A DNA stretch of 64,000 nt from Tetrahymena thermophila SB210 (taxonomy: Eukaryota; Ciliophora; Oligohymenophorea; Hymenostomatida; Tetrahymenidae). This document shows positions 34,778-41,437 of the stretch, one piece after another. The translations under genes were made by a program, and so were the position numbers. The stretch is from the NCBI RefSeq assembly GCF_000189635.1, contig NW_002476507.1, positions 62,001 to 126,000 on the forward strand. The letters run 5' to 3'. The notes beneath the pieces were generated by a model that made no database searches, was not told where the DNA came from, and saw only the letters and a program-made list of their open reading frames with translations. The number at the start of each line of letters is the position of its first letter. The stretch's first letter is position 1.

Positions 34778-36175
34778 TTTTAGTCCAATCTTTCATTCTT
34801 TTTATAATAAGTTATTCAAGGAGAAGTTAGCATTAACAAAATATTTAAAATATTATTTAGTTCTTATTCTTGTTACTAAGTTTATAACAGCAATTTGCAA
34901 CTAATTTTAATGTATGCTAAATAGAATATTGTGTATTTTTCAAATTAATCGATTAATCGAATTGTAATATTAAATACCAACCAATCAACAAATTTTAAGA
35001 AAAAATTAGAGTACTGAATTACTTTGTGGTTTTTATAATTTATTAAAATAATCTATTTATGTATTTTAAAATTAAATGTTCTAATTTCTATGGCTTAACT
35101 AAAAATAAAAAATTATTTTGAGATAATCGATATAATACTCCAAAATTAAGGGTTACCGTCAATCCTCATTAATTAAGGCCTACCCATTTTCTACTCAGTT
35201 TAAGCCCTTAATTGATTGTATAATCAATCTCCAGAAATTAGTCCTTAATATATGAAATCTTAATTAATGAGAATTGATGGTATATCAATTATCAATCATT
35301 TAAAATAAGTAGATAATAAATATTTATTCTTATCTTTTTTTAGAAGATTTTAATTCTTTTAAACCTTTTTTAAGAACTTTTTATATTTAATTCTTTATTT
35401 CACTCAAAAGTTTTTGTTTACTAAAAAAATACTACTAAAAACAAGGGTAAAAAGTAAAATATTTAATTTTTATAGTGTATTATTTTATAAAATGTGTTTT
35501 TAACCTAGCCTTCAATATAACATAATTTACTCTTTAACTTATCAAAGCTCAATAAGAGCTTTATTTAATAATTATGCTTAACTAAATTAAAATGATACTA
35601 GCAAGAAAGAACACACAATTTTATCTAAATCTAAATATTTTGAAATTCTTAATATAAATATTTATTTAATAAATTTTTGAAAATAAGAGAGATAATATAT
35701 ATGGTATACAGTTTAATTAATTATAAAGAGCTGACTTTATTGATCTATTTTCTTCATTTAAAAATTTCAAGCATGTAAATTAATTTTTGTAAAAAGTTAT
35801 TTTGAGTTAATTTATAAATTTATTGTTTATTATTTTAGTCAATGAAGCAAATTTTTGTTTTTGTATAGTATATGCCAAATTAGTGATGGTATTAAATGAT
35901 AAGAAATATGAATGAATAGTAATAGTACTTTAGCAAATGAGCTCGTTCATCTCCTCAGTTTATTTGATAAATGTAAAAAAGAAGCATTCTTAAATATCAA
36001 TTTCTGCCTTAAGTTTCTTTATAATAATAATAAATAAATAAATAAAATATATCAGTTTTTGAATCAGAATAAATTTTTATATCAAAAGAAAGAATAGCCT
36101 AAACTTAATTATTCCATTTTATCTAGCTAATTAGTATTAATTTCAACAAGATATTTAAAAGACAATCAAATAAAT
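34778..36175. other. intergenic with inverted-repeat element
   Basis: Contains the imperfect inverted repeat at 35122-35293 (separate entry). The rest is A/T-rich without coding signal. Confidence 0.5.
35122..35293. repeat. 172-bp inverted-repeat element (MITE-like or structured RNA)
   Basis: The left arm has gataatcgatata (35122-35134) and, after about 20 bases, accgtcaatcctcattaatt (from 35155). The right arm, ending at 35293, is the reverse complement of both blocks with few mismatches (cttaattaatgagaattgat at 35259, tatatcaattatc at 35281). Inside is a further attgat/atcaat hairpin near 35212-35227. The spacer is G+C-richer than its surroundings. It could be a small non-autonomous transposon remnant or a folded transcript. 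Confidence 0.55.
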
Positions 36176-38968
36176 ATGAAAAGCAGATTTGCTAGCACTA
36201 AACCAGAAGTTGATTCTGATCACTCAGATGGAGAAAGATAATTGTTAGAAAAATAATAAGAATAGCTTATGAATCAAATTCCTTCAAAAAAAAAGAGGCC
36301 TCTTATTGCTAAAGAGAAAAAGCAATTCGATTCGGCAGATTTTTTCATGAAAGGTGATGAAAACGGCTCTAATACAACTAGTGATGAAATGCAAGATATC
36401 TAATAAGATGGGACAGATGACACTCAATCAAAATCTTCATCAAATAATCCCCATAAATCCAAAATGAGTTCTAATTTTAAAAAAGATACTCAAAACGGTA
36501 GCTATGAGAATGGCAAATAAAGTGATGATGACGAAGAAAACGAAAACAAAAGCAATAAATTTACAAGTTAGCAAAATAAAAATGCAATCTTAGCTGAAGA
36601 GGAGAGAGCAAGGTAGGCAAAATAAAAGCTTGAGCAAGAAGAAAAAGAAGCAGCAGATAGAATTAAAAAACAAAAGGAAGAAGAGGAGCTAGAAAGGAAA
36701 AGAAAAATGTTAGAAGAAGAAGAATAAAGAAAAAAAAAGTAGAAAGAGGAGTTAGAATTAAGGTAAAAAAAATAAAAAGAGGAAGAGGAAGAACGCCTGA
36801 GATAAAAAAAAGAATAAGAAAAGTTAGAAAAATAAAAGGAACAGTAAAGGTTACAAAAAGAAAAGGAAGAAAGGGAATAACAGGAGGCTAAGAGGTTAGA
36901 AATGGAGAAGAAGTTATAGTAACAAATTCAAAGTAGTCCCTCTAAAAAGTACTCTATTGATGATGATGAAGAAGAAGACTAAGATTAATTGCTTGCATAG
37001 CAATAGCAATAAATGTTAATGAAAAAAACTACCACAAAAAAACCTCTTATTACAAAGTAGAAGAAGGTTTTTGACTCAGCAGATTACTACATGAAAGATG
37101 AACATAATGAAGATGATGAAGATAAGGATGCTAATGGCTCTGACTAAAAAAAATAAGATGACAACAGAAAAGTCATTGAAGTAAAAACAAATTATTCGAA
37201 GTCTTCATTCGTTAATTCACCTTAGACATCAAATAATAATTAAGAGAATTAGACTCAAAATATTTCTGAAAGTAATTAATCATAAATAGCATTTCAATCT
37301 GATCCAATTAAACCTGAGCCTATTTAATTCGCTGATCCAAGCTAAAATAGCAATAAATTAAAGATTATTGGACTTTAAGACTCAGATGAAGATGACGATG
37401 ATGATGATTTATAATTCAATACAATTATCATTACAAATTCATCACCAAAAAATCAACTCTCAGATGGATAATCTCCTAGAAGCAATATATTAAAAAACAA
37501 ACCTGGAGAGTCAAGAGATAGGTCAAGAGAGAAGGAGAGAAAAAGAGTTTCATTTTCTTTACCATCTGATAAATTCAATAAGTAAGAAAATAATTAAGAT
37601 AGTACTAGTACTTAGAAAGATGAGAAAGAGGAAGATTAGCAAGTAAAAATCAATAATGTCCATAGTTTAAAAGGAAGTAGATTTTTAAAATAACCACACG
37701 GAAGCGTTATAGATAGCGAATAAGAAGATCAAGAAAATAGTAAGAAAGAAACAGAAAAAACTATCAATTAACCTCCTAAACCCGCAAATGAGCAAGAAGC
37801 ATAGAAAACTCTTTAAGACTAAATTAATTAAGCCACTTAAAAGCTAAAGTAATAAGGAGGTGCTAAAAAATTACCTCTACTTGTCAAAGATAAAAAGAAA
37901 TTAGATTTTGATTCAGCAGACTATTTCTTAGAGGAAGAAGAAAAAAAAAGAAAATAGTGCACCATCAGTATGCCTGATTTGCAAATGCACGATGATGATG
38001 AAGAAAATGATGAAAAAGAGGAATAAATTTATTACATGAAAATAAATATAAATAGAAATCCAAAGCACAAAAAATCAATACTATCTAATTGTAATAAAAA
38101 ATCAAGATCCATGCCTGAATTAAATATTGCAGGATTAGCATAAAATGATGATGAAGAAAATGATGATAAAAAAAATCTAAAGAATTAAGATAAGCTTCAA
38201 AATTTGATTTAAAATGAAGACCTTGCTTAAGATAAGATTAAAGAAGATACTAGTGAAGATGATGACATAGAATTTGATGATAAAAAATAAGAAGACGAAA
38301 AAAGATCTCAGCCAACTAACAGCAGTATTGAAGATGAAGATGATTTCCTACCTAAAATAATTCATAGTAAAATTACTAACTCTAAGTTCTAAAAGTATAG
38401 AAATCAAGTACATTAAAGTGATGATGACGAGGAGGAGGAAGATGAAGAGGATAAGGCTCAGAAAGATAAATCATCAGAAAATAACTTAATTTTATAACAT
38501 TAATCAGAAAAAATAAATGAAGATAAATAAAATAATGCTGTAAATAATAATAATATTTATGGAAATGATCAATAAAATGAGCAAAAATAAGAAGAAGAAA
38601 ACGATGACTATGAAGAGGAAGAAGAAGAATAAAACTAGTATTACAGACTTAAAGAGACAACTTCTAATCCTAGAAGATCAGTATTTGCTTCATCAAAAAA
38701 TAGTAATGGTCTTGAAAAATGTGAACCAGAAAATAGAGAAAGCTAAGATGAAGATAGTTAAATCTAAAATAATACAAATAAAATAATTTCTCATCAAGAA
38801 TCTGAGTAATTAATGGAGGACCAGTCAAAGAATGTATCATAGTAAGCAAAAAGTGAACATGATTCGTATTAAATTCAACTTCCTATTGCTAAAAAGAAAA
38901 AAAATCTTTTAAATAAGGAGAAAAAGAAAGAATTTGATTCTGCTGATTTCTTCATGAAAGATAAATGA
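36176..38968 (+). CDS. acidic protein with four endosulfine-like FDSAD motifs
   Basis: Single exon, 930 residues, ATG 36176 to TGA 38966-38968. Long acidic (Asp/Glu) and Gln/Ser-rich segments alternate with a Lys/Glu/Gln charged helix at about residues 135-245. Four copies of a short conserved block stand out: KEKKQFDSADFFMK (F51-M58), KQKKVFDSADYYMKDE (F299-M306), KKKLDFDSADYFLEE (F578-L585) and KEKKKEFDSADFFMKDK (F920-M927, at the very C-terminus). Each is preceded by a PLI/LPL-[AIV]-K stretch. FDS[GA]DY is the Greatwall-kinase site and PP2A-B55-binding core of endosulfine/ARPP19/Igo proteins. The natural guess is a multivalent B55-PP2A regulator, but the rest of the ENSA domain is reduced to the basic lead-in. 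The minus-strand promoter side and intron-free structure give no further clue. Confidence 0.85.
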
Positions 38969-39790: not shown

Positions 39791-41437
39791 ATGGAAAGAT
39801 ATAAAATTATAGAAACTATCAGTGATTAAGAGTATGGCACGATTGCTAAAGCGATTAACATTTAGAATAAATAGAAGTATATAGTCAAAATTCTTCGAAA
39901 AAAGTTTTATACTTGGCAAGAATGTATATAAGTGAGAGAAGTAAAAGCTCTAAGACTTTTTTCGCATCCCAACATTATAAAGATAAAAGAGCTTATTAAA
40001 TAGAGAGATGAATTGATATGTGTATATGAGTATTATGAGAAAAGTTTATTTGATTATTATTAAGAGATGCGTGATTTGTGTGATGAATTCTCAGAAAGAT
40101 AAATAAAAGAAATTATGTTTCAAATTATATCAGCAATAACCTATATGCATGATTAAAAATTCTTTCATCGCGATCTATGCCCAGAAACTATTTCAGTGAA
40201 TACTTATAATTCAGATTTGTTAAATTCTTCTAATATTTCTGTCAAAATATCCTCTTTTACTGTAACTAGAGAAATTTCACAAAGATTTGCTCCATACACA
40301 GATTATATAACAACTAGATGGTATAGAGCTCCAGAATAATTAGTACATTCTAATACCTACACTCATAAAGTAGATATTTGGGCAATAGGTTGCATATTTG
40401 CTGAACTCTAGTAATTCTTTAAATTTTTTTTATTTATTTATAATTTTATTTAAACTTCTGTTGTCATTAAGTAAGTTCTCCTTTTTTATATAGAATTAAT
40501 TTCTTTGTTTAAGAATATAAAAATAAATTTTACTATTCGCCACTAGTTATTTAATCTATTTCTAACTTTACAGTAATCTTTTTAATGGATAAATATGAAA
40601 GTTTATCATTTAAAATAAATTATTATTTAGTATTTCTGCCAACTTAAGAAACAAATTCTAATTTAAATATTTATAATTTTGTTTGTTTTTTTAAATTAGC
40701 TTAATGGGACCTCTCTTTAATGGAATAAGTGAACAAGATTAACTTTTAAGAATTATGAAAGTTTTTGGAACTCCAAGTTAATAAGATTGTCCTGAATTAT
40801 TTACATATGCAAGTCATATGAAATTCTAACTTCCTTAGTTGAATCCTACTAATTTAAGTTAGATTTTCCCTAACGCATCTACGGAAGCGTTGGATTTAAT
40901 GTAATTGATTTTTGATTAGATTACACAATAACTTAAATACTGTATAAAATAAATAGGAAATAAATATTCAGGTACAACCCATTACATAGGCCTTCATGCG
41001 ATTAATTACTTAAACATCCATTCTTTTCTGAATTAAATATATAAAATATTCCTATGTATAATACACCATCGAATATTATATAAAAAATGTAAAAAAAGTA
41101 AGACTTCGAAGAATATTTTGAAAGCATTAAAGAATAAGCAGATTCTGAAAAAAATTCAGCAGATAAAGAAAATTCGCCAGAATTATAAAATTCATAAAAA
41201 AAATCCAAATTTTCATAAAACTTAATTAATCCTAAATAAGAAAATGATGAATTCACTCCTACCAATTGCAATGGGGAGGATAATTAGTAACAATTTAGTC
41301 ATTTCTTTTAAAAACACATTGAATAAAATAAAGATTTAGGAGAACATGATTTAGATAGCAAATCAAATTATTAGGTATCTGATATTAATAGTATAGATAA
41401 CACTGGAAAAAACTAAGATTTTACTCCATCGTCATGA
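39791..41437 (+). CDS. RCK/MOK-like pseudokinase
   Basis: Protein-kinase fold of the CMGC group, closest in appearance to the RCK branch (MOK/MAK/ICK) linked to cilia. Exons, phase-checked: 39791-40410, 40700-40900, 40972-41437; 428 residues. The VAIK-type lysine is K33 (YIVKILRKK). The glycine loop is absent ([12 protein letters not shown]). The catalytic loop is HRDLCPET (H126-T133): the Asp remains but the catalytic-loop Lys is Cys and Asn is Thr. The DFG site reads ISSFT (S155 for the Mg-binding Asp). The activation loop keeps [18 protein letters not shown] with a T-D-Y phosphosite, and the C-lobe is well conserved ([41 protein letters not shown]). The last 130 residues are a Ser/Asn/Gln tail. 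Loss of DFG Asp and loop Lys predicts weak or no catalysis with a retained regulatory or scaffold role. Confidence 0.9.

Follow-up and report, generated by a model that had tools for sequence, protein, structure and literature searches.

The window analysed is a stretch of 64,000 nucleotides of the genome of Tetrahymena thermophila SB210 (C65:62001-126000 of the assembly searched), and coordinates given without a locus name are positions in it. On its plus strand an unbroken open reading frame, read with the ciliate code (table 6), in which TAA and TAG encode glutamine and TGA is the stop, encodes a protein with four copies of a short block around the core FDSAD. The following features were recognized at the locus:

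36176..38968, plus strand: four-block gene, encoding a protein of 930 amino acids (P0001), unbroken frame from ATG 36176 to TGA 38968
36287..36349, plus strand: block 1, residues 38-58, KKKRPLIAKEKKQFDSADFFM, S53
36551..36931, plus strand: residues 126-252, predicted to form one long charged alpha-helix between blocks 1 and 2
37031..37093, plus strand: block 2, residues 286-306, S301
37865..37930, plus strand: block 3, residues 564-585, S580, with one extra residue before FDSAD and Leu in place of Met
37967..38125, plus strand: stretch of the four-block protein with SMPDLQ (598-603) and SMPELN (645-650)
38891..38956, plus strand: block 4, residues 906-927, S922, with the stop three residues later
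39791..40429, plus strand: kinase-like gene 3' of the four-block gene, P0002 residues 120-332 matching Pkinase of Pfam at 139.6 bits

The GC content of the coding region is 0.285 versus 0.205 in the in-frame extension upstream (35912-36175), and the start at ATG 36176 is therefore likelier.

The first-pass annotation of this DNA described four FDSAD[YF] blocks within 930 residues, with the serines S53, S301, S580 and S922, and these positions were confirmed. The phenylalanines of the cores are F51, F299, F578 and F920, and the sites are spaced by 248, 279 and 342 residues. The pattern [KE]KK-x-FDSAD-[YF]-[FY]-M proposed for all copies holds literally for blocks 1 and 4, but not for block 2 (QKKV) and block 3 (KKKLD, ending in YFL); the looser FDSAD[YF][FY][ML] matches all four. 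Similarly, PL[IL], said to precede each copy, was found ahead of blocks 1-3, but block 4 has NLL.

The four-block protein is of low complexity, K, E, Q and D making up 49% of it, and the net charge from the F of one core to the F of the next is -6, -10 and -37. Structure prediction by AlphaFold2 from the single sequence, covering residues 1-325, gave an unbroken helix at residues 126-252, with pLDDT of 92-96 at residues 141-240 and lower values at the ends, as well as short low-confidence helices ahead of block 1 (18-33) and block 2 (267-283). The long helix would measure about 19 nm if wholly helical (0.15 nm per residue). Its heptad a/d positions are hydrophobic in at most 27% of cases in every register, and opposite charges at i/i+4 are many; the scaffold, previously called coiled, is better described in this part as one long charged helix. 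A match of the whole protein to CAF-1 subunit A (phmmer, E 1.6e-4, residues 84-293), lying mostly in the charged helix, was regarded as compositional. An antisense gene across 36176-38968 was rejected, the one minus frame read containing many stops; minus-strand open reading frames of 189-294 amino acids are present within this stretch.

Statistics of the core and the lead-in

From the composition of the four-block protein, FDSAD[YF] is expected 2.6e-5 times per protein, and 70 of 100,000 shuffles contained at least one FDSAD. The sequence [LI][IL]xK occurs five times, four of them 8-10 residues ahead of an FDSAD, and the lead-in consensus is [PN]L[IL]xK. When lead-ins were placed at random, one of 200,000 placements equalled the observed four-site arrangement; in this test M was also allowed, with seven sites, and distances of 4-13 residues upstream of FDSAD were accepted.

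A degenerate DNA pattern for FDS[GA]D[YF], which also admits a few other codons, gave 22 matches in the assembly (101 Mb, 445 contigs) versus six for the reversed control. Reading by eye showed a true FDS[GA]D[YF] in 15 of the 22 matches and Thr in three, while four, encoding Trp, Arg or a stop at the position of Ser, were set aside. Four matches belong to the four-block gene, five to a locus at C60, and three together to single-block genes at C243, C259 and C341. The matches at C129:219992, C182, C214, C176, C199 and C426 (FDS or FDT) have no such lead-in and were assigned to chance.

Among the FDSAD codons of the four-block gene, summed over pairs of blocks that were picked for having FDSAD in common, synonymous differences amount to 17.0 of 18.0 sites and nonsynonymous ones to 0 of 72.0. 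For the nine cores of the four-block and C60 genes, the values are 87.8 of 105.3 and 17.2 of 434.7, and the latter can only reflect the route taken from one class of serine codons to the other, since all nine cores are FDSAD. Purely synonymous divergence indicates that the copies in the four-block gene are old and maintained at the protein level, and a recent tandem duplication inside the gene was rejected, because the cores differ at almost all synonymous sites. Chance or low complexity as the source of the blocks is rejected on the composition, the shuffles, the genome-wide pattern counts and the codon count; the cores show selection.

Related genes and the endosulfine family

A second multi-block gene with five FDSAD cores was found on the minus strand of C60 in the same genome. 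Its exons were modelled by hand:

C60, 1296891-1297028, minus strand: exon 1, manual splice model
C60, 1296476-1296670, minus strand: exon 2, manual splice model
C60, 1294481-1295422, minus strand: exon 3, manual splice model, ending in the stop

The modelled introns of 220 and 1053 bases are of the GT..AG type and of phase 0, and the cores are located at residues 51, 115, 177, 327 and 403. The joins are supported, since each of them rebuilds a lead-in (PTLINK-RKKVFDSAD and KLSMIQKE-KKKFDSAD), and four of the five cores share one open frame regardless of the joins. Similar to the four-block gene, the C60 gene is multi-block, with cores of the form FDSADYF[MY], and is followed by a related kinase-like gene; it differs in the length of the modelled protein (424 amino acids), in its five blocks, lying 62-150 residues apart, and in two introns at blocks. 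On the Pfam profile Endosulfine (PF04667, gathering cut-off 29.8 bits), the joined model scored 43.2 bits (E 4.2e-11, four stretches), and a piece of 316 amino acids of the last exon alone scored 40.2 bits.

Single-block endosulfine-like genes were found at C341, C259 and C243, with FDSADY, and at C110, with FNSADY; the last was recovered with the C243 domain as protein query and not with the DNA pattern. The lead-in and the core are common to these genes and the four-block gene. Scores on PF04667 were 24.1 bits for C341, 21 for C243 and 17.2 for C259, all under the cut-off. The core FDSADYYKE is located at the C-terminus, with Lys where most multi-block copies have Met. The proteins of C243, C259, C341 and C110 end 10-12 residues past FDSADY or FNSADY, barring a missed further intron, and thus have no room for a C-terminal cassette of the ARPP19 type. 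Introns at the block are present in C341 and C259, while C243 and C110 are uninterrupted:

L031, 2413-2790, minus strand: C243, uninterrupted open reading frame with a signal-peptide-like start MNKKLSLLILFAFLLATTFAQ
L034, 1837-2211: C110, uninterrupted open reading frame with a signal-peptide-like start and FNSADY

These two genes may be retrocopies with an acquired secretory start.

A phase-0 GT..AG intron three residues before the F of the core was found in C60 block 2, in C259 (64 bases) and in C341 (394 bases); at C60 block 1 a phase-0 intron lies four residues before F, i.e. one codon off. The gene C243 has no intron at that point and reads through, DGDKKVFDSADYY, and in the unbroken frame of the four-block gene no block contains an intron. 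The intron position common to the single-block genes is evidence of the putative descent of the C60 gene from endosulfine genes.

The whole four-block protein gave no Endosulfine match in Pfam. Each of its blocks matched the profile when taken singly, at 14.3-20.7 bits, all under the cut-off: block 1 at 18.1 bits (E 0.0029) as a piece of 54 amino acids and at 15.5 bits (E 0.018) as a piece of 100; block 2 at 20.7 bits (E 4.5e-4, 46 amino acids); block 3 at 14.5 bits (E 0.038, 55 amino acids); and block 4 at 14.3 bits (E 0.044, 44 amino acids), with no match within a piece of 122 amino acids. Comparison with the C60 model by blastp, with the low-complexity filter off, aligned pairs of blocks with a best E of 1.7e-6 and weaker values for others; the pairs are alignable over about 18-41 positions, the lead-in included, and the blocks of both proteins align as one family. 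The likeness to endosulfines suggested in the first-pass annotation is thus borne out chiefly through the five-block gene, while the four-block protein alone stays below the cut-off. The latter is placed provisionally in the endosulfine family through its likeness to the C60 model, not through its Pfam score, and we infer that its blocks probably descend via C60-like blocks. No relatives of the four-block gene were confirmed among 23 pattern stretches in genome_contigs and nine in viral_contigs, neither of which is ciliate-oriented. A profile search of PDB with the blocks returned no ENSA or ARPP19 chain at E up to 10; the matches obtained, nine TFAM sequences with E of 2.4-4.4, were regarded as noise.

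ENSA and ARPP19, of the animal alpha-endosulfine family, are small proteins of about 110 amino acids; to our knowledge, ENSA, ARPP19 and Igo have one such phosphosite each and titrate PP2A-B55. Similar to ENSA and ARPP19, each of the four blocks has the core FDS[GA]DY, in which Asp flanks the serine at -1 and +2 and F replaces Y in blocks 1 and 4, and is preceded by a basic [LI]xK lead-in. The four-block protein differs in having four blocks in 930 amino acids versus one, Ala in place of Gly in the core, blocks scoring below the cut-off of PF04667 and no TP-containing cassette; TP, which was searched for as the mark of the C-terminal cassette (HIPTPQDL region), was not found in the four-block or the C60 protein. 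Of the ARPP19 helix motif F-L-R-x-R-L-x-K, only the [LI]xK half is present, spaced as in ARPP19 in blocks 1 and 2 and shifted in blocks 3-4 and in C60 blocks 4-5; the N-terminal half (F-L-R) is not evident ahead of the four-block or C60 cores. Counted from F, five of the nine blocks (four-block 1-2 and C60 1-3) have a hydrophobic residue at -7 and Lys at both -5 and -2, the Lys at -2 presumably being the counterpart of K58 of ARPP19. The counterparts of the hydrophobic residue and of Lys -5 are L53 and K55 in the numbering of PMC10765524, and Met at +5 of the serine, present in three of the four blocks, resembles M67 of ARPP19 in the same source.

Candidate partners and neighbouring kinase-like genes

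A gene for B55 was found at C200, with human B55 alpha chains as the best matches of its two pieces (E 3.9e-40 and 6.7e-54). Ten B55 residues holding ARPP19 or FAM122A are named from cryo-EM structures in PMC10765524; by a hand count on the alignments, nine of them are identical in the C200 protein (Y178, D197, L198, E223, L225, V228, I284, Y337 and F343), and D340 is replaced by E. Accordingly, similar to the setting of ENSA and ARPP19, most residues of the B55 platform are encoded in the same genome.

A scan for one HRD-type kinase signature, covering 12 of 20 excised loci with the best 150 of 568 candidates scored, revealed at least four kinase loci, C97, C129, C322 and C284, each of which has DFGLS. 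In C97 and C129 the sequence is DFGLSEVG...VGTPDYI[AP]PE with a long segment from DFG to PE, of 76 amino acids in C129 and, by hand count, 85 in C97; an intermediate-length activation segment is described for protist MAST kinases in PMC12024977, and C97 and C129 are similar in this respect. In PDB the C97 piece matched ROCK1 (E 1.8e-35) ahead of Greatwall 5loh (E 4.3e-33), and a search of PDB with a kinase piece of 46 amino acids did not single out MAST. Since PDB ranks ROCK1 above Greatwall, the label rests on DFGLS and the long activation segment, and C97 and C129 are regarded as MAST-like, that is, putative AGC kinases of the MAST/Greatwall type, an assignment that is not exclusive. The proposed partners are available, since B55 and MAST-like kinases are encoded in the same genome.

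A kinase-like gene is also present downstream of the C60 gene, on the same strand and about 890 bases on. The two kinase-like neighbours, which we take to be RCK/CDK-like, are identical at 86 of 213 positions (40%, E 1e-51). In both, the Asp of DFG is absent as read by eye, with SSF in the gene at 39791-40429 and GQF in the C60 neighbour, and in the latter the ATP-binding lysine is also seemingly absent by eye; judged by these residues, both look like pseudokinases. A genome-wide comparison with the 39791-40429 kinase, in which the best 150 of 290 candidates were scored, gave 128 matches and put the C60 neighbour in sixth place, counting the query itself; within the same scored set seven places, again with the query, have E below 1e-30. 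By these comparisons, the C60 neighbour belongs to a small subfamily, and other members are closer to the 39791-40429 kinase. Duplication of a two-gene unit, composed of a multi-block gene and a kinase-like gene, is the simplest reading, though not a proven one.

Proposed function and alternative explanations

In the structure of PMC10765524, helix alpha3 of ARPP19 (46-55) contacts B55, residues F60, D61, pS62 and D64 are located at the PP2A active site, both Asp flanking the phosphoserine hold it, and a C-terminal stretch crosses back over these four residues. Phosphorylated endosulfine inhibits by being a substrate that binds tightly and is turned over slowly (PMC3949306). Loss of the C-terminal cassette leads to rapid dephosphorylation of ARPP19 and abolishes inhibition, though most such mutants are rescued by thiophosphorylation; ARPP19 cut at residue 75 is dephosphorylated in less than 1 min, again with loss of inhibition (PMC8196004). 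The PP2A-B55 inhibitor FAM122A also places a short helix on the B55 platform proposed here for the blocks (PMC10765524). It differs in having no phospho-dependent FDSGDY core.

With a probability of roughly 0.58, the four-block gene encodes a poly-endosulfine, phosphorylated by a MAST-type kinase and acting as a multivalent binder, probably an inhibitor, of PP2A-B55. In this mechanism, the acidic low-complexity scaffold would carry four diverged endosulfine cores, each composed of the basic [PN]L[IL]xK lead-in, a basic stretch and FDSAD[YF][FY][ML], and the gene would have arisen inside the ciliate endosulfine family alongside its five-block C60 paralogue. A MAST/Greatwall-type kinase would most likely phosphorylate the serine of every FDSAD, the [LI]xK lead-in would dock on the B55 platform like the C-terminal half of helix alpha3 of ARPP19, and the phosphoserine would occupy the catalytic site of PP2A. 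Four spaced sites, one pair of which is parted by the predicted rigid helix, could bind several PP2A-B55 holoenzymes, or one holoenzyme rebinding from site to site, and the outcome would be localised, avidity-based, steep inhibition or a timing device; for an inhibitor, avidity would substitute for the absent TP cassette. We infer that the protein is phosphorylated, binds B55, inhibits and is multivalent and localised, and the interpretation of the first-pass annotation, a multivalent B55 regulator, is to this extent partly supported. A multivalent ligand of B55, probably inhibiting through avidity, is favoured because the core and half of the helix motif are kept and the TP cassette is absent.

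The absence of TP from both multi-block proteins and the end of block 4 three residues before the stop speak against a simple inhibitor. The former, together with the rapid dephosphorylation and lost inhibition of ARPP19 truncated at residue 75 (PMC8196004) and the ends of the single-block ciliate proteins 10-12 residues past the core, barring a further intron, favours the main rival of the avidity-based inhibitor, namely a multi-site substrate or tether of PP2A-B55, the blocks of which would bind and be quickly dephosphorylated, concentrating PP2A-B55 at a structure or reporting its activity. However, the cores are constant letter for letter, both Asp included, which is stronger than docking alone needs, and the persistence of several single-block genes without room for the cassette suggests that the lineage may inhibit without it; we regard a substrate or tether as possible, although rather unlikely.

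The weak matches of the four blocks to Pfam Endosulfine, the absence of the first half of the helix motif known from ARPP19 and the kinase-like genes with a degenerate active site adjoining both multi-block genes are also consistent with blocks that derive from endosulfine and now serve another partner, such as a docked kinase or another phosphatase subunit, with no role at B55. Such a change of partner is improbable, as the B55 residues holding ARPP19 are largely conserved in the same genome and the FDSAD core and [LI]xK belong to the surface of ARPP19 that meets B55 and PP2Ac (PMC10765524). Repeated origin of a short linear motif in a low-complexity protein, without endosulfine descent, could be seen in the 49% of K, E, Q and D and in the absence of introns at the blocks of the four-block gene, but the likeness to the C60 blocks runs through the lead-in over about 18-41 aligned positions, the C60 model exceeds the family cut-off and has an intron position common to single-block genes, and related kinase-like genes adjoin both multi-block genes. 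Convergence is already largely refuted by these observations and keeps a very small residual chance.

Among the titles and abstract beginnings listed for open-licence PMC papers, no study of a multi-block endosulfine or of a ciliate endosulfine was found, and the string FDSADY was not found in open-licence PMC papers, where FDSGDY is. In the same collection, papers mentioning endosulfine and Tetrahymena together are unrelated by title, endosulfine and Paramecium occur together in a set of meeting abstracts, and in one paper checked among those with Greatwall and Tetrahymena, Greatwall occurs in a reference only. Protist terms were not found in the C. elegans KIN-4 paper. The work of Labandera et al. 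2015 reportedly treats ENSA across eukaryotes and may mention ciliate sequences.

Ciliates divide two different nuclei per cell. If the four-block protein is a poly-endosulfine of the kind proposed, the stoichiometry and valency of the PP2A-B55 switch can evolve, four or five units being strung together; it would also provide a natural experiment on avidity as a substitute for the cassette that slows the inhibitor, and a handle on local or graded inhibition of one phosphatase in two-nucleus ciliate cells. The idea is directly testable, since Tetrahymena is genetically tractable. A wider and only tentative proposal, for which we would claim a minor share of the probability, is that the ciliate Greatwall-PP2A-B55 switch runs on poly-endosulfines: avidity and fixed spacing, in place of a C-terminal cassette, would give slow, potent inhibition, the four to five phosphates would act as a counter or timer, the helix would set the distance between two phosphatases on one structure, perhaps at either of the two nuclei or a basal body, and the multi-block gene with its kinase-like gene would be an inherited two-gene unit.

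A further short motif, SMP[DE][LI], was found in both multi-block proteins. It occurs twice in the four-block protein (37967-37984 and 38108-38125) and once in the C60 protein, as SMPDIS between C60 blocks 3 and 4, and may serve as a site for a kinase or for 14-3-3.
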